Origin: Idiomarina fontislapidosi
Lineage (GTDB): Bacteria; Pseudomonadota; Gammaproteobacteria; Enterobacterales; Alteromonadaceae
DNA: 64,000 nt
Reading direction: 5' to 3'
NCBI RefSeq assembly: GCF_003226255.1
Contig: NZ_QJST01000001.1
Coordinates: forward strand, 1-64,000
Made by a program: the position numbers and the translations under genes. The notes under the pieces were generated by a model. That model saw only the letters and a list, made by a program, of their open reading frames with translations, did not search any database and was not told the DNA's origin. Below, piece after piece: positions 7,722 to 37,529 of this stretch (position 1 is the stretch's first letter; every line of letters starts with the position of its first letter).

Positions 7722-8123
7722 ATGGATAAATATGAAGGTTCTTGTTTGTGTGGTGCTGTGACGTTTGAGGTGCAGGGGCGGTTTGATAGCTTTTATTTGT
7801 GCCATTGTCAGCATTGCCAAAAAGACAGCGGCTCGGCGCATGCTGCTAATTTGTTTTCTCAATCGGCTCAGTTAGTTTGGCATTCGGGAGCTGATGCGGT
7901 GACTTCTTTTACGTTGCCCGGCACGCGGCATCATAAAAGCTTTTGTAAGCACTGCGGATCGGCCGTACCGAACACACAAATCGCTGGTTTGCTCGTGGTC
8001 CCAGCCGGTAGCCTAGACACAGATCTCGATATATCGCCGACGGCTCATATTTTTTCATCCAGCCGCGCGCAATGGGATAACCCCAACATCGAAACCCCCG
8101 TGTTCGACCGATTACCCCGGTAG
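7722..8123 (+). CDS. GFA/CENP-V-family zinc protein
   Basis: A 133-residue protein of the GFA (DUF636/CENP-V) fold. Zinc ligands are visible: CLCG near residue 7, CHCQHC near residue 26 and CKHCG near residue 72. The family is named for glutathione-dependent formaldehyde-activating enzyme, but most members, including this one, have no tested activity. GGAG lies 8 nt upstream of the ATG. The stop codon TAG (8121-8123) belongs to a REP-A head, so the coding sequence runs directly into the repeat. Confidence 0.85.
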   Translation: MDKYEGSCLCGAVTFEVQGRFDSFYLCHCQHCQKDSGSAHAANLFSQSAQLVWHSGADAVTSFTLPGTRHHKSFCKHCGSAVPNTQIAGLLVVPAGSLDTDLDISPTAHIFSSSRAQWDNPNIETPVFDRLPR

Positions 8124-8178
8124 GTCGCGCCTTGGGCGCGACGATCGATACCGCCCGTGCGCAAAATGCGCACGCTAC
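8120..8178. repeat. BIME: REP-A then inverted REP-B
   Basis: REP-A 8120-8142 (loop CTTGG) and REP-B ending at 8178 (loop AAAAT), facing outward with a 13-nt spacer. The GTAG of the A copy contains the stop codon of the GFA gene. Confidence 0.95.
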
Positions 8179-8264
8179 TGCTTGAAACTTTTTTACAGAC
8201 TCACAGTCAGAATTTTCCCGAATACATTTAGTTAACATTGTTATTTGATAATTTAGGATGCACT

Positions 8265-8834
8265 GTGAATAAATTAAAAATGCTTTTGGCTGTGAGCTTG
8301 ATAGCACTTGTATCTGCGTGCGGCAGTATTCCGCTAACGACCATGGTCAAATTGATGGATATGAATCCTTTAGAGGCGGACCCGAACCAGATTATCGTGG
8401 CTGTGAAATCTCCGAATGGAGTCAGTGTCAATGACGGTGATGTAGTGCTAGATTTTAGTTTTAGAACAGGGGAACCTGAGAGCAGCTTTAATCATACCTT
8501 TCCGGTTATAGTTGATTCCGATTACGCGTTACCCGCGGAGCTGAAAGACGAGCTTGAGAACGACGAACAGTTTACCGTAATGCGTTTATCTGAAGCTGAC
8601 GCGAAAACCATGAGCGCTGGGCAGGAAACGATTCGTGAGTATCGCCGCCAGCACGAGGAAGGTGGCGCAGGAAGTATTAACGTTAGATTGGTCTCGGCAT
8701 GCCAAAGCGACGAATTTACTTGGCATGACTCTGAATTAGACGTGTATTTAAAAATCGATCAAACCAATGAGTTTTTATTGTTTTTGGACGATATTGACCT
8801 CAACGAACTAGCGCTCAAAAACGGTTGTTCGTAG
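8265..8834 (+). CDS. Lipoprotein, unknown function
   Basis: A 189-residue lipoprotein with lipobox ALVSAC at about residues 13-18. The mature protein is acidic, with two further cysteines late in the chain (SACQSDE and the C-terminal NGCS). The GTG start at 8265 is chosen because it directly begins the signal peptide and has AGGA 8 nt upstream; an in-frame ATG at 8238 would put nine odd residues before it. The stop TAG is the head of a REP-A. I recognise no family. Confidence 0.65.
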   Translation: MNKLKMLLAVSLIALVSACGSIPLTTMVKLMDMNPLEADPNQIIVAVKSPNGVSVNDGDVVLDFSFRTGEPESSFNHTFPVIVDSDYALPAELKDELENDEQFTVMRLSEADAKTMSAGQETIREYRRQHEEGGAGSINVRLVSACQSDEFTWHDSELDVYLKIDQTNEFLLFLDDIDLNELALKNGCS

Positions 8835-8890
8835 GTCGCGCCTTGAACGCGACATCAGATCTCCCCCCGTGCGCTCAAGGCGCACGGTAT
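8831..8890. repeat. BIME: REP-A then inverted REP-B, both diverged
   Basis: REP-A 8831-8853 has an imperfect stem (GTCGCGC/ACGCGAC), and the REP-B copy with loop TCAAG ends near 8890. The GTAG head gives the lipoprotein stop codon. Confidence 0.85.
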
Positions 8891-8913
8891 CTAAACCAAA
8901 AAATTACGAAAAA

Positions 8914-8942
8914 TTGACGCCCTTCGACTATTCCATTCTAGA
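8914..8942 (+). promoter_or_regulatory. Possible kdp promoter
   Basis: TTGACG, a 17-nt spacer, then TCTAGA, about 60 nt before kdpF. The -35 is good and the -10 is weak. A weak core promoter would fit activation by KdpE, but no KdpE operator can be assigned by eye. Confidence 0.3.
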
Positions 8943-9001
8943 GATTTTACGCTGCTAAACACTAAATTCATGTGGTCTGCTCATTTAACGAGGATACTCA
9001 C

Positions 9002-9082
9002 ATGACTTGGTTTTTATTGTTTATCGGCACTGCGCTACTTGCTTATTTGGCTGTAGCGATGTTTGTCCCTGATAAGTTTTAA
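9002..9082 (+). CDS. kdpF: KdpF, small subunit of the Kdp potassium ATPase
   Basis: A 26-residue single-span membrane peptide (MTWFLLFIGTALLAYLAV, ending VPDKF), 9 nt before kdpA. Sequence and position match KdpF, which stabilises the KdpABC complex in the inner membrane. GAGG lies 9 nt upstream of the ATG. It is easily missed because of its length. Confidence 0.88.
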   Translation: MTWFLLFIGTALLAYLAVAMFVPDKF

Positions 9083-9091
9083 GGGGGGCAT

Positions 9092-10816
9092 ATGTTTGAA
9101 ATTATTTTAATTATGACGATGGCTATCGCGCTAGCGTACCCCCTGGGTCGTTATATGATCGGTGTGTTTTCGAGCGAAGCGCACTTTTCTGATCGTATAT
9201 TTAATCCGATAGAACGTATTATTTATCGCTGCATTGGGGTGAATCCACATACTTCAATGAACTGGAAAAGTTATGGGCTCGCATTTCTGCTCAGTAATTT
9301 AATGCTGGGTATTATCGCCTTTTTGATACTCAAGTTTCAGCACGTCCTGCCGCTGAACCCGGACAACATTGGCCCATTAAGCTGGGATTTGGCACTCCAT
9401 ACTGCTGTCTCTTTTCTTACCAACACCAACCAACAGCATTACTCGGGACAAGCACAGCTTTCCTACTTATCACAAGGCACACTTATCGTGACGTTGCAGT
9501 TTGTTACGCCCGCGATGGCGCTTGCGGTTTGTGTGGCGATACTTCGTGGCATGATGGGTGGACGTAACGAAAAATTAGCGAAAGAGGGCGCCGAGCGTGA
9601 TTTAGGTAACTATTACGTGGATACCGTGCGAGGTATTGTGCGCGTGCTGATTCCGCTCGCTGCTGTTGTCGCATTGATACTGTCTTCGCAAGGTGTACCT
9701 AGCACGTTTAAAGAGGCCCAAACCGTCACAACGCTTGACCAAAGTAGCGCTGTTATCGAGCAAACCATTCCCGTTGGTCCTGTTGCTTCTATGGTCGCAA
9801 TAAAACAACTCGGAACCAATGGTGGGGGCTGGTACGGTCCCAACAGTAGCAACCCTCTTGAGAATCCAACGCCGTTTTCAAATGCGATAGAGACCATTGC
9901 TATCGTGCTAATACCAATCGCCATTGTTTTTATGGCGGGCGGAATGCTTCGACGCAAGGGCTTCACTGCGATGTCGTTTGCGGTGATGGCGCTGTTTAGT
10001 GCCAGCTTTATTGGGTTTACTGTCTACAGCGAACTGCAGCCTAATGCAGCCTTTAACGAGCTCGCCGCATCTGGACCCAATATGGAGGGTAAAGAGACTC
10101 GTTTTGGTCCGGAATTATCAGCACTCTGGGGAACACTCACTACACAAACCTCAAATGGCTCAGTTAATGCCATGCACGACTCGTTTAACCCGGTTGGCGG
10201 TTTAATAACGCGTTCTGGAATGTTGATTAACGGCATTTGGGGGGGCGTTGGCTGTGGTTTTGTGAACTTTATTGTTTATATCTGGATTGCTGTGTTCCTC
10301 TCTGGGCTCATGATAGGTCGCACCCCCGAGTTGTTTGGCAAAAAAATAGAAACCCGCGAGATTACATTGTTAGGGACACTCATCGTTTTACCTACGCTTG
10401 TGATTTTAGGGTTTACAGCGATTACCGTAGCTTTACCGTCGCTCACAGGCAACAGTAATCCAGGTTTCCATGCTATTTCGCAAGTGTTCTATGAATACAC
10501 GTCCGCGTTTGCCAATAACGGCTCGGGTTTTGAGGGCTTGGGTGATAACACCGTGTGGTGGAATGTGAGTTGCGTAATCACTTTATTGTTGGGTCGTTAC
10601 TTACCCTTGGTTATTCCCCTCGCCATTGCCGGAATGATGGCAAAGAAAAGAACCGTTCCTACAGGTGTCGGCAGCCTGAGTGTGGGTAACGTCACATTCG
10701 CTGTAACGCTAATTGCCGTAATTTTAATTCTCAATTTCCTTTCTTTTCTTCCTGCTGCAGTAATTGGCCCGATTGGTGAGGCATTACAGTTGGCAACTAC
10801 TGGAGTGGAGGGCTAA
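9092..10816 (+). CDS. kdpA: KdpA, potassium-binding channel subunit
   Basis: A 574-residue polytopic inner-membrane protein (E. coli KdpA is 557). The four selectivity-filter regions typical of the SKT superfamily can be seen: NTNQQHYSG, GTNGGGWYGPNSSNPLENP, NGIWGGVGCGFVN and AFANNGSGFEGLGDN. KdpA binds K+ and passes it to KdpB during ATP-driven high-affinity uptake under K+ limitation. A GGGGGG run directly precedes the ATG. kdpB follows after 2 nt, so the two are translationally close-coupled. Confidence 0.97.
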   Translation: MFEIILIMTMAIALAYPLGRYMIGVFSSEAHFSDRIFNPIERIIYRCIGVNPHTSMNWKSYGLAFLLSNLMLGIIAFLILKFQHVLPLNPDNIGPLSWDLALHTAVSFLTNTNQQHYSGQAQLSYLSQGTLIVTLQFVTPAMALAVCVAILRGMMGGRNEKLAKEGAERDLGNYYVDTVRGIVRVLIPLAAVVALILSSQGVPSTFKEAQTVTTLDQSSAVIEQTIPVGPVASMVAIKQLGTNGGGWYGPNSSNPLENPTPFSNAIETIAIVLIPIAIVFMAGGMLRRKGFTAMSFAVMALFSASFIGFTVYSELQPNAAFNELAASGPNMEGKETRFGPELSALWGTLTTQTSNGSVNAMHDSFNPVGGLITRSGMLINGIWGGVGCGFVNFIVYIWIAVFLSGLMIGRTPELFGKKIETREITLLGTLIVLPTLVILGFTAITVALPSLTGNSNPGFHAISQVFYEYTSAFANNGSGFEGLGDNTVWWNVSCVITLLLGRYLPLVIPLAIAGMMAKKRTVPTGVGSLSVGNVTFAVTLIAVILILNFLSFLPAAVIGPIGEALQLATTGVEG

Positions 10817-10818
10817 TC

Positions 10819-12837
10819 ATGACTAAGCAAGTAAAAACGCTCACCGCAGATACTGTGAAAGATTCACTCATTGATGCATTGAAAAAAATGACGCCAACCA
10901 ACATGGCTAAGAATCCTGTCATGTTTGTCGTTTGGGTGGGTACGGTTATTAGTATTTTGCTCACTGTTTTTCATATCAGTGCTGGCGAACCTTTTGGCTT
11001 TGAACTTTGCACAAGCTTTATTCTATTTATCACACTTTGGTTTGCTAACTTTTCCGAATCAATTGCTGAGGCGCGAGGTCGTGGACAAGCTTCTAGTCTG
11101 CGAGCCACAAAAGCATCACTTGTCGCCTTTAAGAAGAACGGAGAAGACTTTGTCGAAACCGATGCGGCGAACCTTAAAAAGGATGATGTCGTAAGCGTAC
11201 GACAAGGCCAGTACATCCCCGCAGATGGAGAAATCATTAAAGGTGTTGCAACCGTGAATGAGTCTGCAGTAACGGGCGAATCGGCAGCGGTTTTGCGTGA
11301 AGCCAATACTGATCACTCGGGTGTCATTGGTGGTACAAAGCTGCTTACTGGCGAAGTACTTGTGCGTGTATCCGATGATCCCGGTAATAGCTTTCTGGAT
11401 AAAATGATTGGTTTGGTAGAAGGTGCTGAGCGTAAAAAAACACCTAACGAAGTTGCTTTAACGGTGCTTTTGGCTGCACTCACTGCGGTATTCTTGCTCG
11501 TTGTAATGACGCTACCGGCGTTGGCATCCTTTGTTAATGTTGAGCTCAATTATGTGATGCTTATTGCATTACTCGTGTGCTTAATACCCACTACCATCGG
11601 GGGCTTATTGCCGGCTATTGGCATTGCTGGCATGAACCGTGCGCTCAGTGCGAATATTATCGCTAAATCGGGTAAAGCCGTTGAGGTTGCGGGTGATATC
11701 GACATCCTTCTACTCGATAAAACGGGCACGATTACCTATGGCGATAGGCAAGCGACTGATTTTATCCCGGCTCATGGGGTGAGCAAAGACACGCTGGTTC
11801 AAGCCGCTTATTGGGCCTCAGTCGAAGATCCAACCCCGGAAGGCAAATCTATTGTTGAGCTTGCTCGAGAAACTGGAGGGCTTGACGAGACCTATCCTGA
11901 GAACGCTGAATTTATTCCTTTTTCACCTTCGACACGACTTTCGGGGCTTAAAATCAGCGAGAGCAAATACTATGTAAAAGGCTCCGGTGACGCGGTTCGA
12001 CTCCTTGAAGAGGAGCGTGGCGTTGCTTGGTCTGATGGGATGAATGCTCATATTGGCGCGGTCGCAAAGCAAGGTGGAACACCACTGGTGGTTGCCGATC
12101 ACGAGCGCGTACTGGGTGTTGTCGCGTTGACTGACGTTATAAAGCCCGGCGTTGCCGAGCGTTTCGCTCGCTTGCGTTCACTGGGTGTAAAAACTGTGAT
12201 GGTAACGGGTGATAACAAAATTACCGCAGGTGCCATCGCGGCTGAAGCCGGGGTTGATGATTTTATCGCTGAAGCTAAGCCTGAGGACAAACTGAGTCTG
12301 ATCCGCGAAGAGCAAGCAAAAGGGCATTTAGTCGCTATGGTCGGTGATGGTACCAACGATGCTCCGGCACTTGCGCAGGCGGATGTTGGATTGGCAATGA
12401 ACTCGGGCACTCAAGCGGCAAAAGAGGCCGGCAACATGGTCGACTTAGACTCCGACCCGACAAAACTTTTACAAGTCGTTGAAGTGGGTAAGCAACTGTT
12501 GATTACCCGTGGTGCTATGACCACATTCTCGTTAGCCAACGATGTCGCTAAATACTTCGCTATTATCCCTGCTGTTTTTGCTAGCGCACTACCGTTTATG
12601 TCGGTCCTTGATGTGATGCGACTTGGAAGCCCTCAGTCTGCTGTGATTTCGGCTCTTATTTTTAACGCCTTGATTATCCCTGCGTTGGTACCGCTGGCTT
12701 TACGTGGAGTGAAGTTAAAAGCCGAGCGTGCAGAGAAGATCTTACGTAACAATATGCTGATTTTTGGGTTAGGCGGTGTGGTACTACCGTTCGTCATTAT
12801 CAAGCTGATTGACATGCTCGTCAGTGCGTTTATTTAA
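10819..12837 (+). CDS. kdpB: KdpB, catalytic P-type ATPase subunit
   Basis: A 672-residue class IA P-type ATPase. Diagnostic motifs: TGES (dephosphorylation loop), DKTGTITYGD with the phosphorylated Asp300, a nucleotide-binding domain with KGSGDAV, and MVGDGTNDAPAL at the hinge. It hydrolyses ATP to drive K+ transport through KdpA. Length matches E. coli KdpB (682). All catalytic residues are present. Confidence 0.97.
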   Translation: MTKQVKTLTADTVKDSLIDALKKMTPTNMAKNPVMFVVWVGTVISILLTVFHISAGEPFGFELCTSFILFITLWFANFSESIAEARGRGQASSLRATKASLVAFKKNGEDFVETDAANLKKDDVVSVRQGQYIPADGEIIKGVATVNESAVTGESAAVLREANTDHSGVIGGTKLLTGEVLVRVSDDPGNSFLDKMIGLVEGAERKKTPNEVALTVLLAALTAVFLLVVMTLPALASFVNVELNYVMLIALLVCLIPTTIGGLLPAIGIAGMNRALSANIIAKSGKAVEVAGDIDILLLDKTGTITYGDRQATDFIPAHGVSKDTLVQAAYWASVEDPTPEGKSIVELARETGGLDETYPENAEFIPFSPSTRLSGLKISESKYYVKGSGDAVRLLEEERGVAWSDGMNAHIGAVAKQGGTPLVVADHERVLGVVALTDVIKPGVAERFARLRSLGVKTVMVTGDNKITAGAIAAEAGVDDFIAEAKPEDKLSLIREEQAKGHLVAMVGDGTNDAPALAQADVGLAMNSGTQAAKEAGNMVDLDSDPTKLLQVVEVGKQLLITRGAMTTFSLANDVAKYFAIIPAVFASALPFMSVLDVMRLGSPQSAVISALIFNALIIPALVPLALRGVKLKAERAEKILRNNMLIFGLGGVVLPFVIIKLIDMLVSAFI

Positions 12838-12849
12838 AAGGGGATCGTC

Positions 12850-13437
12850 ATGGGTATTAACGAATCTGTAACTAAAAACATATGGATTGGACTGCGTTTT
12901 GGCATTGGCTTTTTAGTACTGTGTGGTGGGCTTTATACCGCTGTGATTACGTTCGTCGGAGAACAACTATTTCCTCACCAAGCACGAGGGAGTGTCATTG
13001 TCCATGATGGCCAAGCGGTTGGTTCGACTTTGGTGGCACAAGCGTTTGCCGATCCTCGCTATTTCTATGCTCGACCCAGTGCGGCTGGTTATGATCCGAC
13101 GGCCACCGGAGGCAGTAACCTTGCGCCTTCAAATCCTGAACTGCGTGTTCAAGCACGCGCTCGCAGTGAGCAAATCCAAAGCAAGGAGCAAGTTATCGCG
13201 GCTGCGATACCTGTTGAATTAATTGCGGCTTCTGGAGCAGGGCTTGATCCTCATATTAGCCCCGACGCTGCGCTATTTCAGGCAGAACGTGTTGCTGCGC
13301 AACGAAACCTGACAAACGAATCTGTCACCGCTTTGATCGCGCAGTACACAGAGAAAAAGCAATTTGGTGTTTTTGGTCAAGCCCGAGTCAATGTGCTCAA
13401 GCTCAATTTAGCACTTGACCAAATGAAAGATAAATAA
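12850..13437 (+). CDS. kdpC: KdpC, accessory subunit of the Kdp ATPase
   Basis: A 195-residue protein with one N-terminal membrane span (about residues 15-32) and the KdpC periplasmic domain, including QAFADPRYFYARPSAAGYDP and a C-terminal region with DPHISPDAA. KdpC raises the ATP affinity of KdpB and assembles with KdpFAB. AAGGGGATC precedes the ATG, 12 nt after kdpB. Confidence 0.96.
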   Translation: MGINESVTKNIWIGLRFGIGFLVLCGGLYTAVITFVGEQLFPHQARGSVIVHDGQAVGSTLVAQAFADPRYFYARPSAAGYDPTATGGSNLAPSNPELRVQARARSEQIQSKEQVIAAAIPVELIAASGAGLDPHISPDAALFQAERVAAQRNLTNESVTALIAQYTEKKQFGVFGQARVNVLKLNLALDQMKDK

Positions 13438-13444
13438 GGAATTT

Positions 13445-14176
13445 GTGATGAAACATTTAATTCGAAGCGGTGTAGTGGTCTGTGTGGCATTGTCAGTACA
13501 AAGTACGGTTGTTGCTGCCGAAATTGAAACCTCGAGTAACGTAACACTGGTTAGCGATTATATATTCCGAGGTATCTCCCAAACAAATGAAGACCCTGCT
13601 ATTCAAGGAGGCATCGATTTAACGAGTAACGCGGGTTGGTATGCTGGTGTGTGGGGATCCAATATCGGGTTTGGAGACGGTAGCCTTGAAGCGGATATCT
13701 ATGGCGGCTGGCGCTACATAAGCGATGCCTCTTGGTCGTTTGATGTAGGCGCGATACGCTATATCTATCCAGGCGGCAATAACGCAGATAGCGAGTTCAA
13801 TTACAATGAGGTTTATACTCACCTTAGCTACCAGGACGCCACACTCTCGGTCGTTTATTCTGATGATTATTTTGGTGCGGGAGTCAATCAATTTGTCTAT
13901 GTTGCAGTCGCCTACAGTTATCCGATAGCCGAACAACTGAGTCTTGAACTGAGTACTGGTTTTAATAAATTTGAATCAGGCGCAGAGTTAACTCGATTTT
14001 TAGGCGGTGAGCCCACATCAGATGACTCGTATTGGGATGGCTCTTTAGGAATTAATTATCAACTCAGTGATAAGTTAAGCGTTAATTTAACGTATATTGC
14101 TACAGATATGAGTGATTCAGCATGCAGCGAAGTCTGCGATAATCGACTGGTGTTTGGCGTGCGTTCAAGTTTCTAA
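13445..14176 (+). CDS. TorF-like outer-membrane porin inside the kdp operon
   Basis: A 243-residue outer-membrane beta-barrel with a signal peptide (cleavage near residue 24) and a C-terminal Phe (VRSSF), the usual signal for barrel insertion. The N-terminal block TSSNVTLVSDYIFRGISQT followed by PAIQGG and WYAGVWGSN is the mark of the TIGR02001/TorF-like putative porins. It sits 7 nt after kdpC and 18 nt before kdpD with an AAGGA ribosome site, so it is co-transcribed. Placement suggests it lets K+ or another solute across the outer membrane under K+ limitation; that is inference. Confidence 0.85.
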   Translation: MMKHLIRSGVVVCVALSVQSTVVAAEIETSSNVTLVSDYIFRGISQTNEDPAIQGGIDLTSNAGWYAGVWGSNIGFGDGSLEADIYGGWRYISDASWSFDVGAIRYIYPGGNNADSEFNYNEVYTHLSYQDATLSVVYSDDYFGAGVNQFVYVAVAYSYPIAEQLSLELSTGFNKFESGAELTRFLGGEPTSDDSYWDGSLGINYQLSDKLSVNLTYIATDMSDSACSEVCDNRLVFGVRSSF

Positions 14177-14194
14177 TCTGAGTAGGACCGATAG

Positions 14195-16876
14195 ATGATG
14201 GATTCCCAGCGCGATAAAAAAGCAGATGCCATTTTACGGCAAGTTGCTGAGTCACACAGTGGTAAACTGACTGTGTTTTTAGGGGCTGCGCCAGGTGTGG
14301 GTAAGACCTATGCAATGTTAGCTGCTGCTAAGGAACGACAACAGGCCGGTGTTGATGTCGCTATCGGTCTTTTAGAAACCCATGGGCGCTCTGATACGCA
14401 GGCGATGGCAGATGGCTTTGAACAGCTGTCGTTGCAGCACATCGAGTATCATGGAACTCAACTCAATGAATTTGATATTGATGGCGCATTGAATCGACAG
14501 CCTCAACTTCTATTGGTCGATGAGCTAGCTCATACCAATACGCCGGGGAGTCGTAACAAGCGGCGTTACCAAGATATCGAAGAGCTGTTAAAAGCGGGTA
14601 TTGATGTTTATACAACAGTAAATATTCAGCACATGGAAAGCGTCAATGATCTCGTACTGCAAATGACCGGTGTGAGAGTTAAAGAGACCGTGCCAGATCA
14701 CTTCGTTGATAATGCGTTTGAAATTCGTTTTATTGATTTACCGCCCGCAACGTTAATTGAGCGCCTGCAACAAGGCAAAGTGTATCTACCGGAGTACGCG
14801 CGTTCGGCGTTGTCTTCGTTCTTTTCTTCCTCGAACTTGACTGCACTGCGTGAGCTAGCGATGAAAAAGGCGCTCGAGCGTGTTGATGCCTCGATGCTTA
14901 AAGAATGCTCTATAGAGCAAACGTCGGGCCTGGGTGTTTACATGGATAAGTTGCTAGTGCTGGTTAGTGCTAATAGTGACCACCGTTATTTGGTTCGAGT
15001 CGGCCGACAGATTGCCGAGCGGCGTCAGATACCCTGGGTGGTTGTATGGGTCGATACAGGTAAAACACGAAGCCCTGAAAAGTCACAACGGCTTGATGCA
15101 ACGTTGTCGCTGGCAAAGGAGTTGGGTGCTGAAACCAAGGTTTTAAATGGACCGACGACCTTTAGTGTTGTCGCGGACTTTATAGAGAGCAATGCGGTTT
15201 GCACGGTACTAGTGGGGGCAGGTAGTCGAGGACGTTTTACGTGGCGACGTAAGCGGTTGTATCAGCAATTAATAGAGCTTGAACTACCTTTTGAGGTTAC
15301 GGTATTCCCCGAGCGAGAGCGATCCTCTGAGTCGAGCCTTTTTTCTTTTGACTTGAAGGGTCTTAAGGGCTTGGGTTACTGGCATGGGTACTTCGGTGGG
15401 ATTATCGGAGTTACTATCGCTTCGTTGGTTGCGGTCGCGTTGGAAAACTTTTTGGATGTTGGCAACTTAGTCTTAGTTTACACCTTGGCGATTATTACGG
15501 TGGGACTTAAATTTGGATCCCGCTCAGCGCTGTTCACTGCGTTAATCTCATTCTTAAGCTTTAACTTTTTTCTGACTGAGCCTCTCTATACATTTACAGT
15601 TTACAGTCAAAACGATGTGACGACACTGATGTTTTTGTCAGTGATAGGCTTGATCTGCGGCCCCGCAGCCTCGCGCATACGGCATCAATTTATTCTTCTT
15701 AAGCAAGCAAATAGCTATGCCGAAACGTTACGCGAGCTAGCACAAGAACTGGCTACCGTGAACGAAGAAAGAGCGATGTGGGAGCGGTTAATACGGCTAT
15801 TGAGTCGCCTAACTCATACAGAATGCACAATAGCGGTGAGAGGTGATGGGACGGAACTGGATTTTATCAATGAGGTCGCTGCGATTAAGCACAAACTGAC
15901 TGAAGCCACGGTACGTTGGAGTTTCAAGAACAAGGCGCAAGCGGGGGCTCATACAGAGACGCTCTCGAGTGCACTGGTAACCACGTTTCCTATTATTGTT
16001 GATGGTGATGTGGTGGCAGTGGCCGGCGTCCCAAACGTATTTGATAACACCGAGAGTGAGCCTTACAACGTCAGCCTTATATTGGCAATGCTGAATCAAG
16101 CTTCGGGAGCCTGGCGGCGCATTAAACTTGCTGCCGATTTAGAAAGCGCGCGCGTTAAGACAGAAATGGAGCAGTTACGATCGGCATTGTTATCCTCAGT
16201 GTCTCATGACTTAAAATCGCCACTATCAGCGATGATGGGCGCGGCGGAAAGTTTAAAGCTACTTGATGATAAGTTATCGGCGGATGATCGAGTAGAGTTG
16301 ATGGATACTATTATTTCTGAAAGCCGTCGGCTCGATAGCTATATTCAAAACCTGCTTGATATGACGCGGCTTGGTCATGGCACTCTAAAAATAGAGCGTG
16401 ATTGGGTGTCGATCGAAGATATCGTGGGGAGTGCACTGAGGCGTTTAAGGCGTTATTGGCCTAACACGCACGTGCAGATCGAGCACACTAACGCCGTGCC
16501 TTTGCTTTACGCGCATGCAGCCCTTGTTGAGCAGGCTATTTTTAATATTCTTGAAAACGCAGCAAAATATAGTCCGGAGACGGCGCCTATCTTTGTTGAA
16601 ATGCAGGTGCAGCAAGGTGACTGCGTTATAGCAATTGAAGACCGTGGTCCGGGTATTCCCGAGGACCAACGTGACAAAATTTTTGATATGTTTTACATCG
16701 TCGCAGATGGTGATAAGAAGAAGCAAAACACAGGCATGGGCTTGGCGATTTGCAAAGGCATGATTGGCGCGCACGGTGGTAATGTGGTTGCGCGAGCTGG
16801 ACTCGGCGGCGTGGGTACGCGCTTCGAAATTAGCTTGCCGATTGAACAGGGCAATGACCAGAAGAAGGATAATTAG
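14195..16876 (+). CDS. kdpD: KdpD, sensor histidine kinase for potassium limitation
   Basis: An 893-residue sensor kinase with the full KdpD order: N-terminal KdpD domain with Walker A GAAPGVGKTY (about residue 30), a Usp-like domain (about 250-370), four transmembrane helices (about 390-500, DUF4118), a GAF-like region, HisKA with phospho-acceptor His671 in SHDLKSP, and HATPase_c (N box ILENAAKYSP, G boxes DRGPGIPE and NTGMGLAI). It senses low K+ or turgor and phosphorylates KdpE. kdpE starts 4 nt after its stop. Confidence 0.96.
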   Translation: MMDSQRDKKADAILRQVAESHSGKLTVFLGAAPGVGKTYAMLAAAKERQQAGVDVAIGLLETHGRSDTQAMADGFEQLSLQHIEYHGTQLNEFDIDGALNRQPQLLLVDELAHTNTPGSRNKRRYQDIEELLKAGIDVYTTVNIQHMESVNDLVLQMTGVRVKETVPDHFVDNAFEIRFIDLPPATLIERLQQGKVYLPEYARSALSSFFSSSNLTALRELAMKKALERVDASMLKECSIEQTSGLGVYMDKLLVLVSANSDHRYLVRVGRQIAERRQIPWVVVWVDTGKTRSPEKSQRLDATLSLAKELGAETKVLNGPTTFSVVADFIESNAVCTVLVGAGSRGRFTWRRKRLYQQLIELELPFEVTVFPERERSSESSLFSFDLKGLKGLGYWHGYFGGIIGVTIASLVAVALENFLDVGNLVLVYTLAIITVGLKFGSRSALFTALISFLSFNFFLTEPLYTFTVYSQNDVTTLMFLSVIGLICGPAASRIRHQFILLKQANSYAETLRELAQELATVNEERAMWERLIRLLSRLTHTECTIAVRGDGTELDFINEVAAIKHKLTEATVRWSFKNKAQAGAHTETLSSALVTTFPIIVDGDVVAVAGVPNVFDNTESEPYNVSLILAMLNQASGAWRRIKLAADLESARVKTEMEQLRSALLSSVSHDLKSPLSAMMGAAESLKLLDDKLSADDRVELMDTIISESRRLDSYIQNLLDMTRLGHGTLKIERDWVSIEDIVGSALRRLRRYWPNTHVQIEHTNAVPLLYAHAALVEQAIFNILENAAKYSPETAPIFVEMQVQQGDCVIAIEDRGPGIPEDQRDKIFDMFYIVADGDKKKQNTGMGLAICKGMIGAHGGNVVARAGLGGVGTRFEISLPIEQGNDQKKDN

Positions 16877-16880
16877 GGTT

Positions 16881-17561: not shown

Positions 17562-17616
17562 GTCGCGCCTGTGGCGCGACATCGGGTTTGGTCCGTGCGC
17601 AAAATGCGCACGTTAC
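17558..17616. repeat. BIME: REP-A then inverted REP-B
   Basis: REP-A 17558-17580 (loop CTGTG) supplies the kdpE stop; REP-B (loop AAAAT) ends at 17616, ten bases before the end of the convergent receptor gene. It occupies most of the gap between the two genes. Confidence 0.95.
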
Positions 17617-17626
17617 GGTGAAACGG

Positions 17627-28871: not shown

Positions 28872-28892
28872 ATATTGTCCTTTATGGTCTTA

Positions 28893-30287: not shown

Positions 30288-31414
30288 GTACGGTTCTCCA
30301 AGAAGTTCGCTGGCGTACCGACGGATACAGCAAAAATCTTAGCACTATTGGAGGGGCGATAAATGCCGGCTTCTGCCTGCGCAGAAATCGTGTCGGCGAG
30401 CGAGGAGTCCTTCCATAATGTCATTTCGCCCATTGCACTGTTGCGTGATGGGTTAACGTTGGCAACCCCGATAGGCTCAACAAACCCGGCGCTGTATTGA
30501 AAGATGATCATGGTTTCATTAGGGAGCACACCCGCGTTTTGACCGCGATCGAGGCTGATTTGATTGCCCTTGATCCCGAGTACTTGGGCGGTTGCCGGCA
30601 TTTCTGACAGCATACGTGTGAGCAAAATATCGATGCCGCGAGATGCCATATCGTTGATCACCGCGTTGACATGTGCGCTATCGAAGTAGCGGTAACCACT
30701 GACATAGCGGTTGTTTGCCATGACATACTTGAGCTCGCTGCGGTCACGCACATCCTCGGATTTAACGCGGATTTTGCCAAGGTTCGGGTAAGACAACATT
30801 TCACGTGTGTAGGGGTCGATGGTTGCTGCCGTTAATTCGAGGGTGTAGTCCATCCAACCTGTGATGCTGCCCTCATTTTTTACCGTACGAAGGGTATCGA
30901 GTTTAACCACATAGTCAGGTTGTAAAACACGACGTTCAGCAGCTCTGTTCGCCACCGACGTAGCGCCTTGCTGCTCAAGTTGAAGTTGTTTTTCTTCGCT
31001 TATAACGCTGTCATCTCGAGTCACGATGCGGAAGCGGTTGATGCCTGCGAATTGGTTTTCGAGCATTTTGAGTAGCTGACTGTCATCGTATTCGCGCAGG
31101 GCATCAACGCCTTGACCTTCGCCGCCAACATCGGTGCCGCTAAAGTACATGCGTACGATGGGTTTTTTTAGCGGGCAATTGTCGTTTTCGTTGCTGCGAT
31201 CAAACGTACAGTTCGCTAATCCTTGAGTATCAAAGTAAGCGGGTACTTTGATGTCGTCATCTTCAAACCGATAAGCACTTTTTGCGATGATCGCGTTGGA
31301 AGCACGATTACTGACTTGACCTGTTTGCGTTTGTTGCGCGGGTTGGGTGGTTTGGCAGGCCGATAACACCGCGACAGCTGCAAGGGATAAGGCAATTTTT
31401 AACGTGTTCTTCAT
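30284..31414 (-). CDS. Lipoprotein with CsgG/FlgT-like architecture
   Basis: A 376-residue lipoprotein: lipobox VLSAC (Cys20), a short Gln/Thr linker, then a domain with LREYDDSQLLKMLENQFAG and later YVVKLDTLRTV, of the kind seen in CsgG-like periplasmic domains. The C-terminal part has QISLDRGQNAGV, resembling the FlgT C-terminal barrel motif. The protein is probably anchored in the outer membrane facing the periplasm. No pore-forming evidence is visible. It is tightly packed with its neighbours (9-nt gap upstream, 4-nt overlap downstream). Confidence 0.6.
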   Translation of the reverse strand: MKNTLKIALSLAAVAVLSACQTTQPAQQTQTGQVSNRASNAIIAKSAYRFEDDDIKVPAYFDTQGLANCTFDRSNENDNCPLKKPIVRMYFSGTDVGGEGQGVDALREYDDSQLLKMLENQFAGINRFRIVTRDDSVISEEKQLQLEQQGATSVANRAAERRVLQPDYVVKLDTLRTVKNEGSITGWMDYTLELTAATIDPYTREMLSYPNLGKIRVKSEDVRDRSELKYVMANNRYVSGYRYFDSAHVNAVINDMASRGIDILLTRMLSEMPATAQVLGIKGNQISLDRGQNAGVLPNETMIIFQYSAGFVEPIGVANVNPSRNSAMGEMTLWKDSSLADTISAQAEAGIYRPSNSAKIFAVSVGTPANFLENRT

Positions 31415-31423
31415 GAGGTTTTC

Positions 31424-32362
31424 CTATTCTATACTGGCGTCGAACAACCAGTTTGAAACGGGTTGTGCGACCATTGCTTTAAGTTGATTCTGAGCATCGG
31501 TAGCCGCGTCTTCGGGAGTCGCTCCGGTGCCGATGACTTCGATAATTTGTTGGTGTAACTGACGAAAGGGCGACTGTGGCTCGGTAACCGACGCAATTAA
31601 CTGTTGGCGGTGTAAATAACCCGTATTGCTTTGGCGTTGTTGTGCCTGTTGCTCAAGTTGCAGCCATAAGTCAGGTTGACTCTGCGATGGGGTGTTTCGC
31701 TGAATCACGCCCGCTATGACGTTTAAATCTCGGCTCGCTATCACTCGCAGTCCCAGTGATTGTTCAACGCGTGTTAACTCAACCAGCTGCTGGTTAAATG
31801 GGTTATCTGTTTGCGAGGGGTCGAGCTGTGCTAACGCAAGGGCGTAAGCGTTGGCCGTCTGCAACGGCTGCTTGTAGCGAAGCAACCATAATAACTGTTG
31901 TTGCGAATCGGCTTGTGTCGGGAATCGTAATTCGCTGTATTGATCAATTTGGTTCTTCAGGAAATCGTGAACAGCGGCTTTTTTAACTGCCACTTTGACA
32001 CTGACTGTGCCGTCGGCGTGGCGGTAGCTTTGTTCGGGCGCTATATTACTGAACTGCAGCGGCACTGATTGTCCAGCCACCGTCAGGCTGAATTGGCTTT
32101 GCGTATCCGTGCCCTGTGCGCTGGTTTGCTTGTCGTATACACTCAATGACTCGCTGCGCAAGGACACGGCAACCTGCTCTGCAATTGCAGCGAGCGCGGT
32201 TTGTGTTGCTTGCGCATGAGTTTCAGCGGTCGCCACAGCCCGATAAGTGTCACGATCAGAAGAAGGCAGCTCAGTGACCCACTGCGGTTGATCTTGCGCA
32301 TGCAGTGGCGTACTGAACGCTAACAGTGACACCACTGCTAGCGTTAACGCAGATATACGCAC
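31424..32362 (-). CDS. Exported LPP20-like protein of the envelope operon
   Basis: A 312-residue protein with a signal peptide (cleavage near LHAQD). The LPP20-type domain is clear: QPQWVTELPSSDRDTYRAVATAET followed by AALAAIAEQVAVSLRS-like helix and YRHADGTVSVKVAVKKA. The C-terminal half is helical and Gln-rich with a second short alanine-rich helix (TPEDAATDAQNQLKAMV). Its start is 2 nt from the stop of the operon's first gene. Confidence 0.65.
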   Translation of the reverse strand: MRISALTLAVVSLLAFSTPLHAQDQPQWVTELPSSDRDTYRAVATAETHAQATQTALAAIAEQVAVSLRSESLSVYDKQTSAQGTDTQSQFSLTVAGQSVPLQFSNIAPEQSYRHADGTVSVKVAVKKAAVHDFLKNQIDQYSELRFPTQADSQQQLLWLLRYKQPLQTANAYALALAQLDPSQTDNPFNQQLVELTRVEQSLGLRVIASRDLNVIAGVIQRNTPSQSQPDLWLQLEQQAQQRQSNTGYLHRQQLIASVTEPQSPFRQLHQQIIEVIGTGATPEDAATDAQNQLKAMVAQPVSNWLFDASIE

Positions 32363-32364
32363 GT

Positions 32365-33066
32365 TTAGCCTTTGGCTTCGAGTTCTTCTTGCAAGCCATC
32401 GATAGCCTCGATGGTTTCTTGCTCTAACGAAATTAATTCGTTTGCATCCGAAGCCAGCTCTAACTGGTCTTTAGCACGCAATATCGCCAAGGCAACATCA
32501 TTGTCAGCGGTGCGCTCGTCATCTGCTTTCATCATACCGCCAAGCCAATTGGCCGCGGTCGCTTTAGCAATTTCACCACCGTACTGACTGGTTAGATAAC
32601 CCAATTTGATTAGCTGTGCAGTAAGCTCGATACCTAATTGGGTATTACGCTGAGTGACCTCATCAATCGAGGCTTGATATGCCACAATTTTAGGACCAAT
32701 TTTGTCTTCCTCTGAAGTCGCTCCCGCATCGAACTCGGTGATAGCTAATTGCAGCTGTTCGGGGGTTTTGCCTTGGTGAGCATACAAAAAGGCTTGTACA
32801 TCAGCGTGATTTTCTGCTTGTGTGCGGTATTCATCCATCACACTGTATTGGCGCTCTAAAATTGACGCGCAAATATTTAGCACTTCATCGACACCAGGAC
32901 TGACCTCGACCCGATTGAAGCCAACTTTCTCAATGTTTTCAGATAATGTAGCGATAGCATCAACACGGTTCATTGTTGCTGCCTGTTCGTTACCTGACCC
33001 GTTAGACATACAGCCGGAAGTTGCAAGAATTGCGGCAAGCGTAGGCGCCAAGATCCATTTGTTCAT
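32365..33066 (-). CDS. Lipoprotein, first gene of the envelope operon
   Basis: A 233-residue lipoprotein with lipobox ATSGC (Cys19), a short linker and an all-helical mature part (long helices about residues 60-170 and 195-230). No family recognised. It is the first of eight minus-strand genes spaced from -44 to +21 nt, so its promoter in the 33067-33270 region should drive the set. Confidence 0.6.
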   Translation of the reverse strand: MNKWILAPTLAAILATSGCMSNGSGNEQAATMNRVDAIATLSENIEKVGFNRVEVSPGVDEVLNICASILERQYSVMDEYRTQAENHADVQAFLYAHQGKTPEQLQLAITEFDAGATSEEDKIGPKIVAYQASIDEVTQRNTQLGIELTAQLIKLGYLTSQYGGEIAKATAANWLGGMMKADDERTADNDVALAILRAKDQLELASDANELISLEQETIEAIDGLQEELEAKG

Positions 33067-33271
33067 AATTAATCCCTCGGGGTTAAAGAAACTAGCAATA
33101 GGTGTTTATTAATAAGTTGTTATCTAATATTTTTGGCTAATGTAAATTTTATGTAAAGATAGTTCAACAGTTTTTTATGAACTTTTTGATACATTAAAAA
33201 GACAGATTGGTTGTTGTGCTCGCCTGTAAGCTTTGATAAAAGTTACGTTGTTGACATAGGTCAATCATTTT
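33067..33271. other. Divergent intergenic region between the envelope operon and a diguanylate cyclase gene
   Basis: The AT-rich left half should hold the promoter of the eight-gene operon; no single -35/-10 pair on the minus strand stands out. A TTGACA at 33251-33256 has no -10 at normal spacing on the plus strand. No gene is present. Confidence 0.4.
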
Positions 33272-33300
33272 TTGGCAACTTTAGATTTTGCTTGTATACT
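33272..33300 (+). promoter_or_regulatory. Sigma-70 promoter of the diguanylate cyclase gene
   Basis: TTGGCA (33272-33277), an exact 17-nt spacer, and TATACT (33295-33300). The predicted start of transcription, about 7 nt later, coincides with the base of a perfect hairpin (33307-33324). Confidence 0.6.
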
Positions 33301-33306
33301 TCTCGA

Positions 33307-33393
33307 TCCCAAAAGGATTTGGGAATTAGCGATATGTTGATAGATGTATCTGCTGACCTCGGGAAATAGCAACGGACTGGACGTTGGAGTTGG
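33307..33393 (+). promoter_or_regulatory. Candidate CsrA-controlled leader of the diguanylate cyclase mRNA
   Basis: At 33307-33324 a perfect 7-bp stem (TCCCAAA/TTTGGGA) carries the loop AGGA, which is how CsrA sites are displayed. Five more GGA motifs follow at 33362, 33374, 33379, 33386 and 33392, the last overlapping the ATG and one forming the Shine-Dalgarno. Several GGA sites around the start are typical of mRNAs repressed by CsrA. csrA itself lies 9 kb away at 42536. Confidence 0.5.
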
Positions 33394-34758
33394 ATGAGTT
33401 ACGAGAAAAAATTATTGGATATTGCTGACGAATTTGTCGCTTACATTGATAAAGACAAAATTTATCGCTATATCAACCCCGCTTATGAAAAGTTTTTAGA
33501 CCTCGAAGAGCCTATCGAAGGAAAACACGTCGCTGATATTTTTAGTGAGGACTCACTTGGCGATGTATTTGAATTTCAGAATCGAGCCTTAGCCGGCGAT
33601 AAATGCCATTTTTCTAAGCACATTCGTTTGCGTGATGGGCGTGTACGCTATTGGAGTGCCCGATATATTCCTTATATTGATCACGACGCGGGTGTGGTCA
33701 ACGGTTTTTTTGTACTCATCTCTGACGAGACGGCTAATAATGCGGTGCTGCATTTATTGAAGCGAGTGTATACCGCAGCAACCCACGAAAACCGAGGGCC
33801 CGATCGCAGCGAGGCGATCAATATGGTACTGCAAGAAGGTTGCGACTATTTGGGGCTGGATGTTGGTTTGGTCAGCAAGGCGATCGACGACTGCTATATC
33901 ATTAAATGGGTCCACTCTCGCTTAGCTCCGATTGACCCCGAAACAGAATTAAGCTTGGGGCAAACCTATTGTTCAGTGACGCTAAATAACAAGGCAACTA
34001 CCTACACGGTAAAAGCCTCTGAGTGCCCAGTGTATCGTAACCACCCGAGCTATCAGCAGTTTAATTTTGAAACTTACATTGGTGCACCCTTGTATTTAAA
34101 TGGTCATTTATGGGGCACCTTGAGTTTTTCGAGCCCATCGGCTCGCGAAAATGAGTTTAGTTCGCTCGAGTTAGAAACGTTTCAGATCCTGACTAAGTCG
34201 ATACAAATGCTGTTGAATGAACATAAGCTCGTGAAGTCGTTGCACGCGGAAAAGTCGGAATTGGAGGTTTTTGCTCAAACCGATGAGTTAACAGGTTTAG
34301 CGAACCGTTCGTTTATTACCCGTTACGTAACGAAGCAGCTGTTTATCATGCAACCTGGTGAGTTTGTATTTGCGCTTATCGATATTGATTATTTTAAGCG
34401 TGTTAATGACAGTTACGGCCATGAGGCGGGTGATGAAGTGTTAATGCAGCTGGCGCAACGTGTAAAAGAGGGCTTGCGTAAAACGGACATTATTGCGCGG
34501 CTGGGTGGGGAGGAGTTCGTGGTTATTTTGAACGAGAGTAACACCACCCGTGCTCATGCTACGCTTAATCGTCTCCGTCAGTTGGTTCAACAAAAGCCGT
34601 TTAAGCTCTGCCAAACAGAAATAACCACCACGGTGAGTATTGGTGCTACATTCAACGTCGAGGGCGATGATTTTCGTGCCATTTACAACCGCGCCGACGA
34701 ACAGCTTTACAAAGCAAAATATCGCGGCCGTGATTGTTTAAGCAGCGATTTCGCGTAG
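33394..34758 (+). CDS. PAS-GAF-GGDEF diguanylate cyclase
   Basis: A 454-residue cytoplasmic protein with no membrane span. A PAS domain (about residues 5-118, with YINPAYEKFLDLEEPIEGKH), a GAF domain (about 135-275) and a GGDEF domain (about 290-450) follow in order. The active-site loop is GGEEF (371-375), preceded by the inhibitory I-site RKTD, so the enzyme should make c-di-GMP from GTP with product inhibition. The GAF domain has CSVT and CPVY cysteines. The TAG stop is the head of a REP-A. Both expression (leader with GGA motifs) and output point to a motile-sessile switch. Confidence 0.9.
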   Translation: MSYEKKLLDIADEFVAYIDKDKIYRYINPAYEKFLDLEEPIEGKHVADIFSEDSLGDVFEFQNRALAGDKCHFSKHIRLRDGRVRYWSARYIPYIDHDAGVVNGFFVLISDETANNAVLHLLKRVYTAATHENRGPDRSEAINMVLQEGCDYLGLDVGLVSKAIDDCYIIKWVHSRLAPIDPETELSLGQTYCSVTLNNKATTYTVKASECPVYRNHPSYQQFNFETYIGAPLYLNGHLWGTLSFSSPSARENEFSSLELETFQILTKSIQMLLNEHKLVKSLHAEKSELEVFAQTDELTGLANRSFITRYVTKQLFIMQPGEFVFALIDIDYFKRVNDSYGHEAGDEVLMQLAQRVKEGLRKTDIIARLGGEEFVVILNESNTTRAHATLNRLRQLVQQKPFKLCQTEITTTVSIGATFNVEGDDFRAIYNRADEQLYKAKYRGRDCLSSDFA

Positions 34759-35035
34759 GTCGCGCATTGTGCGCGACGTGGGGCTCTTTTCGTGCGCAGG
34801 ATGCGCACGCTACGTCGGTGTGGTAGGTCGCGCATTGTGCGCGACGTGCAGATCTTTTCGTGCGCAAAATGCGCACGTTACGTCGGTGTGGTAGGTCGCG
34901 CATTGTGCGCGACGTGGGGATCGGACCGTGCGCAAAATGCGCACGCTACGCGCGACGTGCAGATTGGACCGTGCGCAAAATGCGCACGTTACGCGCGACG
35001 TGCGTATCTTTTCGTGCGCAAAATGCGCACGCTAC
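34755..35035. repeat. REP array bounded by the stop codons of two convergent genes
   Basis: REP-A at 34755, 34823 and 34891; inverted REP-B copies at about 34791, 34859, 34927, 34970 and 35013. The A+B unit repeats every 68 bp and the last three B copies every 43 bp. The first A head is the diguanylate cyclase stop; the last B head, on the other strand, is the stop of the EAL gene. The array is the entire intergenic region. Confidence 0.97.
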
Positions 35036-37092
35036 GCGATGTTGAGGTCTGCCAGGGGCATGGGTTTGTAGAATTTAAAGCCTTGTAAATAATGGCATCC
35101 TCGGGCACTAAAATAATCGTGCTGCACTGCATCCTCTATGCCTTCCACAACAATTGTTTTGTTGAGCTGTTGCGCCATATAAATTATCGAGTCAACTAGC
35201 GGATACTCGGTATTTGCCTGTGTGACTTGGTCTGTGAACGATTTATCGATTTTGAGAATGTCGATAGGTAAATCGCTCAGGTAGGACAAACTGCTATACC
35301 CCGTACCGAAATCATCAATCGCAATTTGAATACCCGCCTCATTTAAGGTTGTGAGCTTCTGTTTTACAAGTTTGATGTCTTTGGCGACTACACTTTCGGT
35401 GAGCTCAGCGCACAGATCTGACGGATTGAAGTGATATGTTTTGCACAGATTAATCAGGTCTTGTGCTATATCGGTCTGATGAAACTGCTGCACAGACAGG
35501 TTGAGTGACAGACGGATACCGTGCTTTCGGCACATAGGTGCCATATCGCGAATGGCTTTTGACATCACGAATTGACTCAGTTGTGTGATCTGTCCTGTTT
35601 GCTCGGCAACCGGTATAAACTTACCTGGCGAGATAAAGCTGCCGTCTTGTTGCGGCCAACGCGCCAGTGCCTCAACGGCTTTAATTCCTCCCGACTGGGC
35701 ATCGATAATGGGCTGATAGTGCACATCTAACTGGTTGTTATCGAGAGCTATCTGCAAGCGATTACGTAAACAGAGGGCTTCGTGGTAGTGCTTCGCCATT
35801 TTATCCTGATAGAGCACAAAGTTATTGCCACCTAATTTTTTAGCTGAACTCATCGCAACATCGGCGCGTTGAATGGCGTCTTCGGCACTGGTTTCACGGT
35901 TTTCGATGCGATAAACACCCAAACTTGCGGTGACATGCAGGTAAAACTCATCGATGGCGATTTTTTCACGGATGAGGTTTATTAACTGTTGGCAGTAGTC
36001 TTCAACTTTAAAGTCTTTAACGGTTTTTACGAAGATGATGAACTCATCACTGCTAAAACGAGCGACTTTGGCAAAATGAGGTTTGTCGTCGAGCAGCCGC
36101 TTTGCGATGGTTGTAAGAACAATGTTTCCGGTGCTTTGCCCGAGGCTATCATTGATTGGTTTGAAGCCATCTAAGTCGATAAATATTACCCAGCCGGAGT
36201 GACCGTGATTATCTAAGTGGTTTTGAATGTACTGTTCGAGATAGGAGCGTCGGTACAGGCCTGTAGTGCTGTCATGTTGCGCGATATAACTAATTTTGTC
36301 TTTTTCTACGCGAAGACGTGTGTTGGTAAAAAATGCGAAGGTGAGCACGATAGAAAACACGAAGCCGACGAAGTAAACCATTAAGCTGGTTTGCGCGGCA
36401 ATCAGAATCGGGTCGCTCATGGTGATGAAGTCGCCGACCTCTAAAATCTTGTTGATTTGGCTCGTTGATACGTAAGTCCAAAGACATGCGACGGTGAACT
36501 GTGTCAGTGAGATGGTCAGCCAACTGGTCGGTGAAAGCATGGTGTAGTTATATTCGTCTGACCATTCCATCGCCAGCAGTGTCGCGGATACGACCGTGAT
36601 GACAAACGCACATAAGGAGACCTCGAACACATTTAGCTGGCTGGCGAGGGTGGCGTCCATGGTGAACAGACAGTACAAGTCGAATACACCGACGACAAGA
36701 CCGTAGATACTGGTTGCCAGACCGAGCGCGCGATAAAGTCCGGCGACTTTAAATACGCAAAACGTGGCGCCCGCCATTAACACAAATAACCGCATGGTGA
36801 GCGGCGGCATACCGTTGGATAGGGCGAGGGTGATGGGCTCAACGAACAGTAGAATTATCCCAAAGACAAACAGCGCGGCGCCTGCCAGTCGGGTAAGCCA
36901 ATATTTTTGCAATACATAACCGAAGTAAATGGCGCTGACCATAAAGCCTGCAATAACGCACGTGGCGGATAGCAGTGGAAGTTGGCTGGGGGGCAGGAAG
37001 TAGGGTTGCACCAGCGTTGCTATTGCGCCGAATAACGTCGCTACCGCAACGTTAATAATGACCGAAGCTGAAATCGTCCGTTTTAGTTGCAT
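35032..37092 (-). CDS. Membrane GGDEF-EAL protein, probable c-di-GMP phosphodiesterase
   Basis: A 686-residue protein with about eight membrane helices (residues 1-265, a MASE-like sensor), a GGDEF domain and an EAL domain. The GGDEF active site is SSDEF (in ARFSSDEFIIF), so it should not make c-di-GMP. The EAL domain has the catalytic motifs: EALARW, NLSVQQF, ELTES, DDFGTGYSSL and KIDKSF, so it should hydrolyse c-di-GMP to pGpG. The degenerate GGDEF may bind GTP as a regulator. ATG at 37092 is used; a GTG two codons upstream is possible. The stop TAG is a REP-B head. Confidence 0.88.
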   Translation of the reverse strand: MQLKRTISASVIINVAVATLFGAIATLVQPYFLPPSQLPLLSATCVIAGFMVSAIYFGYVLQKYWLTRLAGAALFVFGIILLFVEPITLALSNGMPPLTMRLFVLMAGATFCVFKVAGLYRALGLATSIYGLVVGVFDLYCLFTMDATLASQLNVFEVSLCAFVITVVSATLLAMEWSDEYNYTMLSPTSWLTISLTQFTVACLWTYVSTSQINKILEVGDFITMSDPILIAAQTSLMVYFVGFVFSIVLTFAFFTNTRLRVEKDKISYIAQHDSTTGLYRRSYLEQYIQNHLDNHGHSGWVIFIDLDGFKPINDSLGQSTGNIVLTTIAKRLLDDKPHFAKVARFSSDEFIIFVKTVKDFKVEDYCQQLINLIREKIAIDEFYLHVTASLGVYRIENRETSAEDAIQRADVAMSSAKKLGGNNFVLYQDKMAKHYHEALCLRNRLQIALDNNQLDVHYQPIIDAQSGGIKAVEALARWPQQDGSFISPGKFIPVAEQTGQITQLSQFVMSKAIRDMAPMCRKHGIRLSLNLSVQQFHQTDIAQDLINLCKTYHFNPSDLCAELTESVVAKDIKLVKQKLTTLNEAGIQIAIDDFGTGYSSLSYLSDLPIDILKIDKSFTDQVTQANTEYPLVDSIIYMAQQLNKTIVVEGIEDAVQHDYFSARGCHYLQGFKFYKPMPLADLNIA

Positions 37093-37180
37093 AGTCACAT
37101 CAAATTAACGCCAAACCTAAATGCTAATCGATTTTATCCAATATGACTATACAAATGTTATCGCAACGTGCAGATTGGAT

Positions 37181-37529
37181 CGTGCGCAGGATGCGCACGT
37201 TACGTCGGTGTGGTAGGTCGCGCATTGTGCGCGACATGCAGATTGGACCGTGCGCAGGATGCGCACGCTACGTCGGTGCCGGATATCGTCCCATGGGCGT
37301 AGGTCGCGCATTGTGCGCGACATGCAGATTGGACCGTGCGCAGGATGCGCACGCTACGTCGGTGCCGGATATCGTCCCATGGGCGTAAGTCGCGCATTGT
37401 GCGCGACGTGCAGATCGGACCGTGCGCAAAATGCGCACGTTACGCGCGACGTGCAGATTGGACCGTGCGCAAAATGCGCACGTTACGCGCGACATGCAGA
37501 TCGGACCGTGCGCACAATGCGCACGCTAC
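37181..37529. repeat. REP array with 86-bp and 43-bp tandem units
   Basis: REP-A at 37213, 37299 and 37385 (the last with GTAAG), spaced exactly 86 bp. REP-B copies lie at 37181, 37250, 37337, 37421, 37464 and 37507, the last three spaced 43 bp. The order and the GTGCAGAT(T/C)GGACCG spacers match the array at 34755-35035. The final B head provides the stop codon of the HupE-like gene. Confidence 0.97.

Follow-up and report, generated by a model that had tools for sequence, protein, structure and literature searches.

REP heads as stop codons of host genes in Idiomarina fontislapidosi and its relatives

Two questions about repetitive extragenic palindromic (REP) elements have yet to be answered: how they can multiply in a compact genome without doing damage, and why their place is at the ends of genes. 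Both are raised by the first 64 kb of contig 1 (NZ_QJST01000001.1; hereafter the window) of the Idiomarina fontislapidosi genome (2.86 Mb in 45 contigs), where the GTAG or GTAA head of a REP supplies the stop codon of one gene after another. We report here that REP heads lie in register with stop codons in excess of expectation, that this joint recurs with unrelated REP stems, that the C-terminus is unchanged in about half of the families that could be compared, and that heads forming a stop are more often shared between close relatives than heads lying beyond one. The explanation we prefer, to which we give roughly an even chance, is that REPs were inserted in register at or beside a stop codon and were locked in once the head had become the stop.

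Register of REP heads at gene ends

An initial annotation of the window listed 13 genes whose stop codon is part of a REP head, and all 13 of 13 stops were found at the positions it gave (Table 1). In each gene the TAG or TAA of the head ends the reading frame and a REP stem, or a close variant of one, follows directly 3′. GTAG or a variant therefore stands immediately 5′ of a short stem in every case, with stems that are imperfect in four of the 13: the stem is shortened to 6 bp at 8834, carries a single mismatch at 20673 (where the head is GTAA), has shifted pairing at 22627 and is reduced to a weak, mixed hairpin at 24314 (queH). A hand count of the region from 6.5 to 37.6 kb gave 18 genes whose 3′ ends abut a REP. 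The head is the stop in 13 of these, the others ending at 6538, 7656, 17627, 22652 and 24235. The annotation had also described one array as bounded on each side by the stop of a convergent gene; this proved correct, and the array fills the gap between the two stops. An Rfam scan of the window gave no family at or above threshold.

The distance d was measured from the stop of a gene to the TAR of the head, for same-strand heads from −60 to +80, with a simple purpose-written gene caller and REP finder. These were applied to REP-bearing stretches of the I. fontislapidosi genome and of its close relatives G004, G011 and G012 (surveyed at a coding score of at least 8), and to a further sample of ∼ 40–60 kb around the Y1_Tnp genes of G003, G005, G008, G009, G010, G013 and G016. 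The main count, restricted to a coding score of at least 12, comprised 122 genes in 74 families (clusters at 45% identity) from ten of the eleven genomes, and includes doubtful reading frames, at least those of 42 and 182 codons. It includes 11 of the 13 genes listed for the window, since the caller missed the GFA-family gene and the imperfect hairpin of queH was not scored as a head. Decayed heads were not counted, which lowers the in-register and the read-through totals alike.

The modal d was 0 in 36 of the 74 families, and 39 had at least one member at d = 0. The remaining 38 families were scattered between −31 and +69 with no more than three at any value. Tested against a uniform distribution over 0–80, the 71 families with d ≥ 0 gave p = 3e-49; for d = 0–6 alone, 36 of 40 families fell at d = 0 (p = 2e-26), positions 1–6 together holding four. 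A negative modal d, in which the gene crosses the head in a different reading frame, was found in three families (frame test, p = 2e-14). Coincidence, or an artefact of gene calling in which GTAG is simply a common gene end, is a scarcely credible source of this pattern. TAG stops are not rare, ending 130 of the 567 genes without a head (22.9%), but GTAG ends just 31 of the 567 (5.5%); the excess is a spike at a single position, and many of the gene ends are backed by their products and orthologues. With 36 of 74 families at d = 0 against 5.5% GTAG ends, we rejected a calling artefact, and chance is excluded as the source of heads at stops.

The joint was seen with five REP stem types. Among genes with a head in range, the head was at the stop in 3/7 (G005), 2/7 (G008), 4/10 (G009) and 1/6 (G016), genomes with stems (CCTGAC, CCTGTT, CCTGCC) quite unlike those of I. 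fontislapidosi. The G010 stretch (CCTTCG stems) held eight heads and no gene in range. The GTAG:GTAA ratio was 57:3 at stops compared with 324:121, a descriptive figure that includes orthologues and some heads scored twice.

C-termini and retention among relatives

If REPs had cut into genes at random, their hosts should differ at the C-terminus from orthologues without the REP, an outcome that the annotation had named as a refutation. We compared stop-REP genes with orthologues in the fetched stretches and picked by hand 13 informative families, each with an orthologue lacking a REP head as its stop (hereafter REP-less, with reference to that stop alone). The protein ended at the same residue in seven of the 13 and differently in six, and it is these six families that show the refuting outcome. 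The YicC-like gene has the same last residue in 19/19 genomes, three of which carry a REP at the stop. The 283-codon (3/3), 325-codon (2/3), 462-codon (1/1) and 757-codon (1/1) genes also end as in REP-less orthologues, and the stop of the 283-codon gene bears different REP stems in G005 and G014. A 226-codon EAL-domain gene ends identically in G001, G002 and G008, while three more orthologues are equal in length with a different last residue. The 963-codon sensor kinase was scored as exact on the strength of G003, G010 and G013, the closest of 15 REP-less genomes.

The altered ends differ in degree. The lipoprotein-like protein ending at 8834 is one residue longer than that of G004, whose gene stops one codon earlier with TAA. 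QueH has two residues fewer than 11 of its 12 REP-less counterparts and one fewer than the twelfth, from G017. The gene ending at 35032 (688 codons) falls six codons short of its orthologues in G011 and G012, which themselves continue through a REP-like stretch. The 220-, 673- and 153-codon genes also end differently from REP-less orthologues. The annotation's statement that the proteins are full length therefore stands for KdpE, which has a complete output domain (profile positions 1–77 of 77), and fails for QueH. Decayed REPs seemingly encode the tails of the G011 and G012 orthologues of the 688-codon gene and, likewise, that (GGALCAK) of the membrane-protein gene ending at 7656 (window 7600–7656; L008 ∼ 1150–1210).

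Several genes were set aside from this comparison. The 261-codon gene matches G007 exactly, yet in place of a full GTAG head its stop carries TTAG or half a REP, and other relatives differ; the 1184-, 224- and 353-codon genes have changed or half REPs in relatives; the 303-codon gene has 47% identity only; and short or doubtful frames were left out. The gene ending at 20673 was excluded because the relatives' own stop lies just upstream of the head. In G012 a separate TAG stands two codons upstream of the head's TAG; in I. fontislapidosi this first stop is missing and the TAA of the head terminates the gene. A gene ending in Phe was excluded because the head comes after the stop: no Phe codon has G in its last position, and in I. 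fontislapidosi and G004 the original stop persists with the head adjoining it as TAG TAG. All six listed REP-less relatives share its last residue.

Other joints showed further detail. In G005 a REP pair exactly fills the gap between two convergent stops (L112, 12338 and 12387), one of them that of the 226-codon gene, and the same pair is present in G009. In the I. fontislapidosi 1184-codon gene the head is apparently duplicated (TAGCG TAGCG), the first copy being the stop. Behind some stops elsewhere come a head with just half a stem and then a full REP (L123 in G016; L116 in G009), resembling remnants of recombination or excision. A displaced original stop was sought behind single REPs; a TAA follows the tail in I. 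fontislapidosi C17, G011 C2c and G003b, too few to adopt the idea. Downstream of the YicC-like stop, G004 and the more distant G015 are nearly identical (TAGGGTCATGTTAAG...), where I. fontislapidosi, G011 and G012 have the REP (L089, L101). This likeness possibly reflects recombination or another repeat.

In comparisons across the four close genomes, the orthologue carried a head at an unchanged d in 68 of 79 cases (17 families) where the first head lay at d = 0, and in 19 of 46 (15 families) where it lay at d > 0. When a head anywhere within 90 bases was accepted, the figures were 74/79 and 33/46. That stop heads are more often shared than heads beyond stops is what lock-in predicts. The same data bear on an alternative in which insertion is unaimed: REPs within genes would be purged unless the TAG of the head fell in frame near the end, those that did would be kept longest, and the excess at d = 0 would be the product of filtering and survivorship. 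We consider this a serious possibility, somewhat short of an even one. It would account for the altered C-termini in six of 13 families, for relatives that read through a decayed REP-like stretch, for the greater sharing of stop-forming heads and for the 36 to 3 ratio of in-frame to read-through families by modal d. However, positions just past a stop should be at least equally harmless, yet they hold four families (d = 1–6) against 36 at d = 0. Seven exact C-termini out of 13 also exceed, in our judgement rather than by a model, what random in-frame truncation would leave, and the difference in sharing is just about two-fold, shrinking further when any head within 90 bases is counted.

The RAYT, the hairpins and the REP cluster of the window

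A profile search of the genome gave a single Y1_Tnp match, at 20139–20456 on the minus strand of the window. NCBIfam NF047646 names its product a REP-associated tyrosine transposase (RAYT; 151 bits, cut-off 80). The gene sits among REPs, with inverted heads on either side of it (19947, minus; 20550, plus), and it belongs to the 13 genes that end in a REP head. Of the 114 genomic matches to GTAR-N3-GCGC-N5-GCGC, 47 fall at 6.8–37.6 kb, near the RAYT; within the window the matches mostly form alternating pairs. The two REP families recognized by the annotation correspond to GTCGCGC and CGTGCGC stems; a third stem, CTTGCGC, occurs elsewhere. The Y1_Tnp genes of G009, G010, G013 and G016 were also RAYTs by NCBIfam (4/4 tested). 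Contigs C3 and C7 of I. fontislapidosi have REP arrays in their first 800 bases (L022, L023), so the assembly may break at arrays and further arrays may be missing.

The annotation had proposed that translation end is tied to a hairpin and, as a matter of anatomy, this holds for most of the 13 genes. In folds of 41 nt (minimum free energy −9.3 to −20.9 kcal/mol) the predicted hairpin begins at the base after the stop in 10 of 13 genes and lies within 15 nt of it in all 13. A regulatory role, in which the hairpin directly 3′ of the stop would slow termination, or protect or end the message, and so tune each gene, is nevertheless improbable in our view. The position of the hairpins is suggestive, and a 2025 paper, citing an earlier study, describes ribosomes stalling where an E. 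coli REP lies no more than 15 nt from a stop (PMC12306157). But the genes are functionally unrelated, several stop REPs have poor stems (8834, 22627, 24314), the z-score against shuffles of the same 41 nt fell below −1.5 in five of 13, and a mobile-element origin accounts for the sequence without any function.

Table 1. Genes of the window that end in a REP head, with the associated REP array and cluster.
Feature	Position	Strand	Occurrence in relatives or genome
GFA-family gene; TAG stop is head of REP 8120–8142	7722..8123	+	same in 4/4 clade genomes
Lipoprotein-like gene (judged by eye, without a Pfam match); head of REP 8831–8853 is the stop, stem partly broken	8238..8834	+	
kdpE (response regulator); stop is head of REP 17558–17580	16884..17561	+	
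RAYT; own stop is REP head	19944..20498	-	stop-REP in 4/4 clade genomes
Lipoprotein-like gene (by eye; no Pfam match); TAA stop is GTAA head	20673..21044	-	
SIMPL-family gene; stop is head of REP 21857–21879	21096..21860	+	same in 3/3
SnoaL-like gene; stop is head of REP 22331–22353	21909..22334	+	only I. fontislapidosi among loci searched
56-codon gene; stop is head of imperfect REP at 22624	22457..22627	+	same in 3/3
queH; stop is GTAG head with poor hairpin	24314..25057	-	
Lipoprotein-like gene (judged by eye, without a Pfam match); head of REP 25098–25120 is the stop	25117..25728	-	head at stop in 3/3, GTAA in G011
PAS/GAF/GGDEF protein gene; stop is first head of array 34755–35035	33394..34758	+	
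REP array occupying entire gap between two convergent stops (GGDEF gene, GGDEF/EAL gene)	34755..35035	.	
GGDEF/EAL protein gene, 688 codons; stop is last head of array 34755–35035	35032..37098	-	
Uncharacterised gene; stop is REP head	37526..38032	-	3/3
Local REP cluster around RAYT	6539..37529	.	47/114 genome pattern matches in about 31 kb

The part of the window that is rich in REPs, around the RAYT gene, is also a hotspot of gene content. At this place the fetched loci showed no counterpart of kdpE (of the kdp operon) or of the SnoaL-like gene. In G012 the GNAT gene is located elsewhere, and the stretch from G004 yielded no TonB-type gene. Exchange of gene cassettes between REPs was noticed as a possibility.

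Proposed insertion at stop codons and comparison with known REP systems

We suggest that ordinary GTAG-headed REPs (single, in pairs or in arrays), moved or once moved by the resident RAYT, would land at gene 3′ ends in the register that puts the TAG of the head on the stop codon. The last residue would often stay unchanged while the TAG of the REP takes over termination, and in-register insertions would be the tolerated ones. The REP would then be locked in, because losing or changing the head removes the stop of the gene and lengthens the protein. Both ideas had been offered in the annotation as alternatives. RAYT-driven insertion at stops fits the seven exact C-termini and the recurrence with unrelated stems, and sits poorly with the six that differ; selection that keeps the head as the stop fits the greater sharing of stop heads. 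Neither is proven, but a RAYT is the probable maker of the insertions, and lock-in the probable cause of the sharing. Insertion may also be aimed at the stop and not merely filtered afterwards. The broader proposal that the RAYT systems of the genus aim REPs at stop codons, as a safe site where the element supplies its own stop, leaves the protein intact and is difficult to lose, is tentative and in our estimate rather doubtful. Its best support is the surplus at d = 0 over the next six positions, together with the exact C-termini.

A number of observations weigh against insertion at the stop followed by lock-in. The best arguments against aiming are the six altered C-termini and the result for E. 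coli. E. coli K-12 REPs, including those in bacterial interspersed mosaic elements, share the GTAG head and the location at gene 3′ ends, yet in nine 50-kb stretches of MG1655, searched with their own head pattern (range −60 to +100, score at least 15), 48 REP heads gave 17 genes with a head in range and none of the 17 at d = 0. The head alone is therefore no explanation. The cleavage sites described for TnpA-REP are the dinucleotides CT or CA (PMC8266576), and these are too short to specify stop codons by themselves. The 963-codon kinase is longer in the other 12 REP-less genomes, so that only 3/15 match. Four families have a member at d < 0 which, besides the decayed heads, are out-of-register ends. 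The stretches used for d were sampled for holding REPs; the sharing comparisons come from stretches selected in the same way and are not independent. GTAG also occurs at stops without a REP in some relatives, in G013 (325-, 462- and 963-codon genes) and G018 (283-codon gene). Insertion beside a pre-existing GTAG was considered and not adopted, as the YicC-like gene has GTAG in just one of 16 REP-less orthologues.

A head that doubles as the host's stop suggests a simple and testable way in which an element could both enter safely and persist for long. Such REPs should not be treated as free-floating intergenic DNA when their function is judged. We know of no insertion sequence of the IS200/IS605 group that targets stop codons. 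These elements use the same HUH single-strand chemistry, and GTAG takes the position of their guide tetranucleotide. The present comparison covers standing insertions, with no insertion event observed. In published work GTAG serves as a guide tetranucleotide at the base of the hairpin; the RAYT reads it and, for one of the enzymes tested, it was shown to help choose the CT or CA cleavage sites (PMC6006769, PMC8266576).

Passages of Nunvar et al. (2010; PMC2817692) on REPtrons describe rayt genes flanked by inverted REPs and, in Thauera, REPs concentrated near rayt, both as here, and also REPs that can directly follow the rayt stop. That remark is limited to rayt genes, whereas the joint described here is found in many unrelated genes. 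In the text at hand of Bertels and Rainey (2011; PMC3116915), on REPINs, the term 'stop codon' is absent, and heads as stops of host genes are unreported in the passages seen from other REP/RAYT papers. Our search of the topic, with subscription papers mostly outside it, turned up no count or targeting test. A close likeness is with the GTAG-tagged REPs of Di Nocera et al. (2013; PMC3733652), which have the same GTAG head, short stem, inverted pairs and position at gene 3′ ends. Their text has no occurrence of Idiomarina, and it states that GTAG REP ends 'often provide' the TAG stop, in a section without a count, null model, orthologue test or mechanism. The head as a stop codon is thus already in print; what is new here is its measurement and the evidence on register, C-termini and retention.

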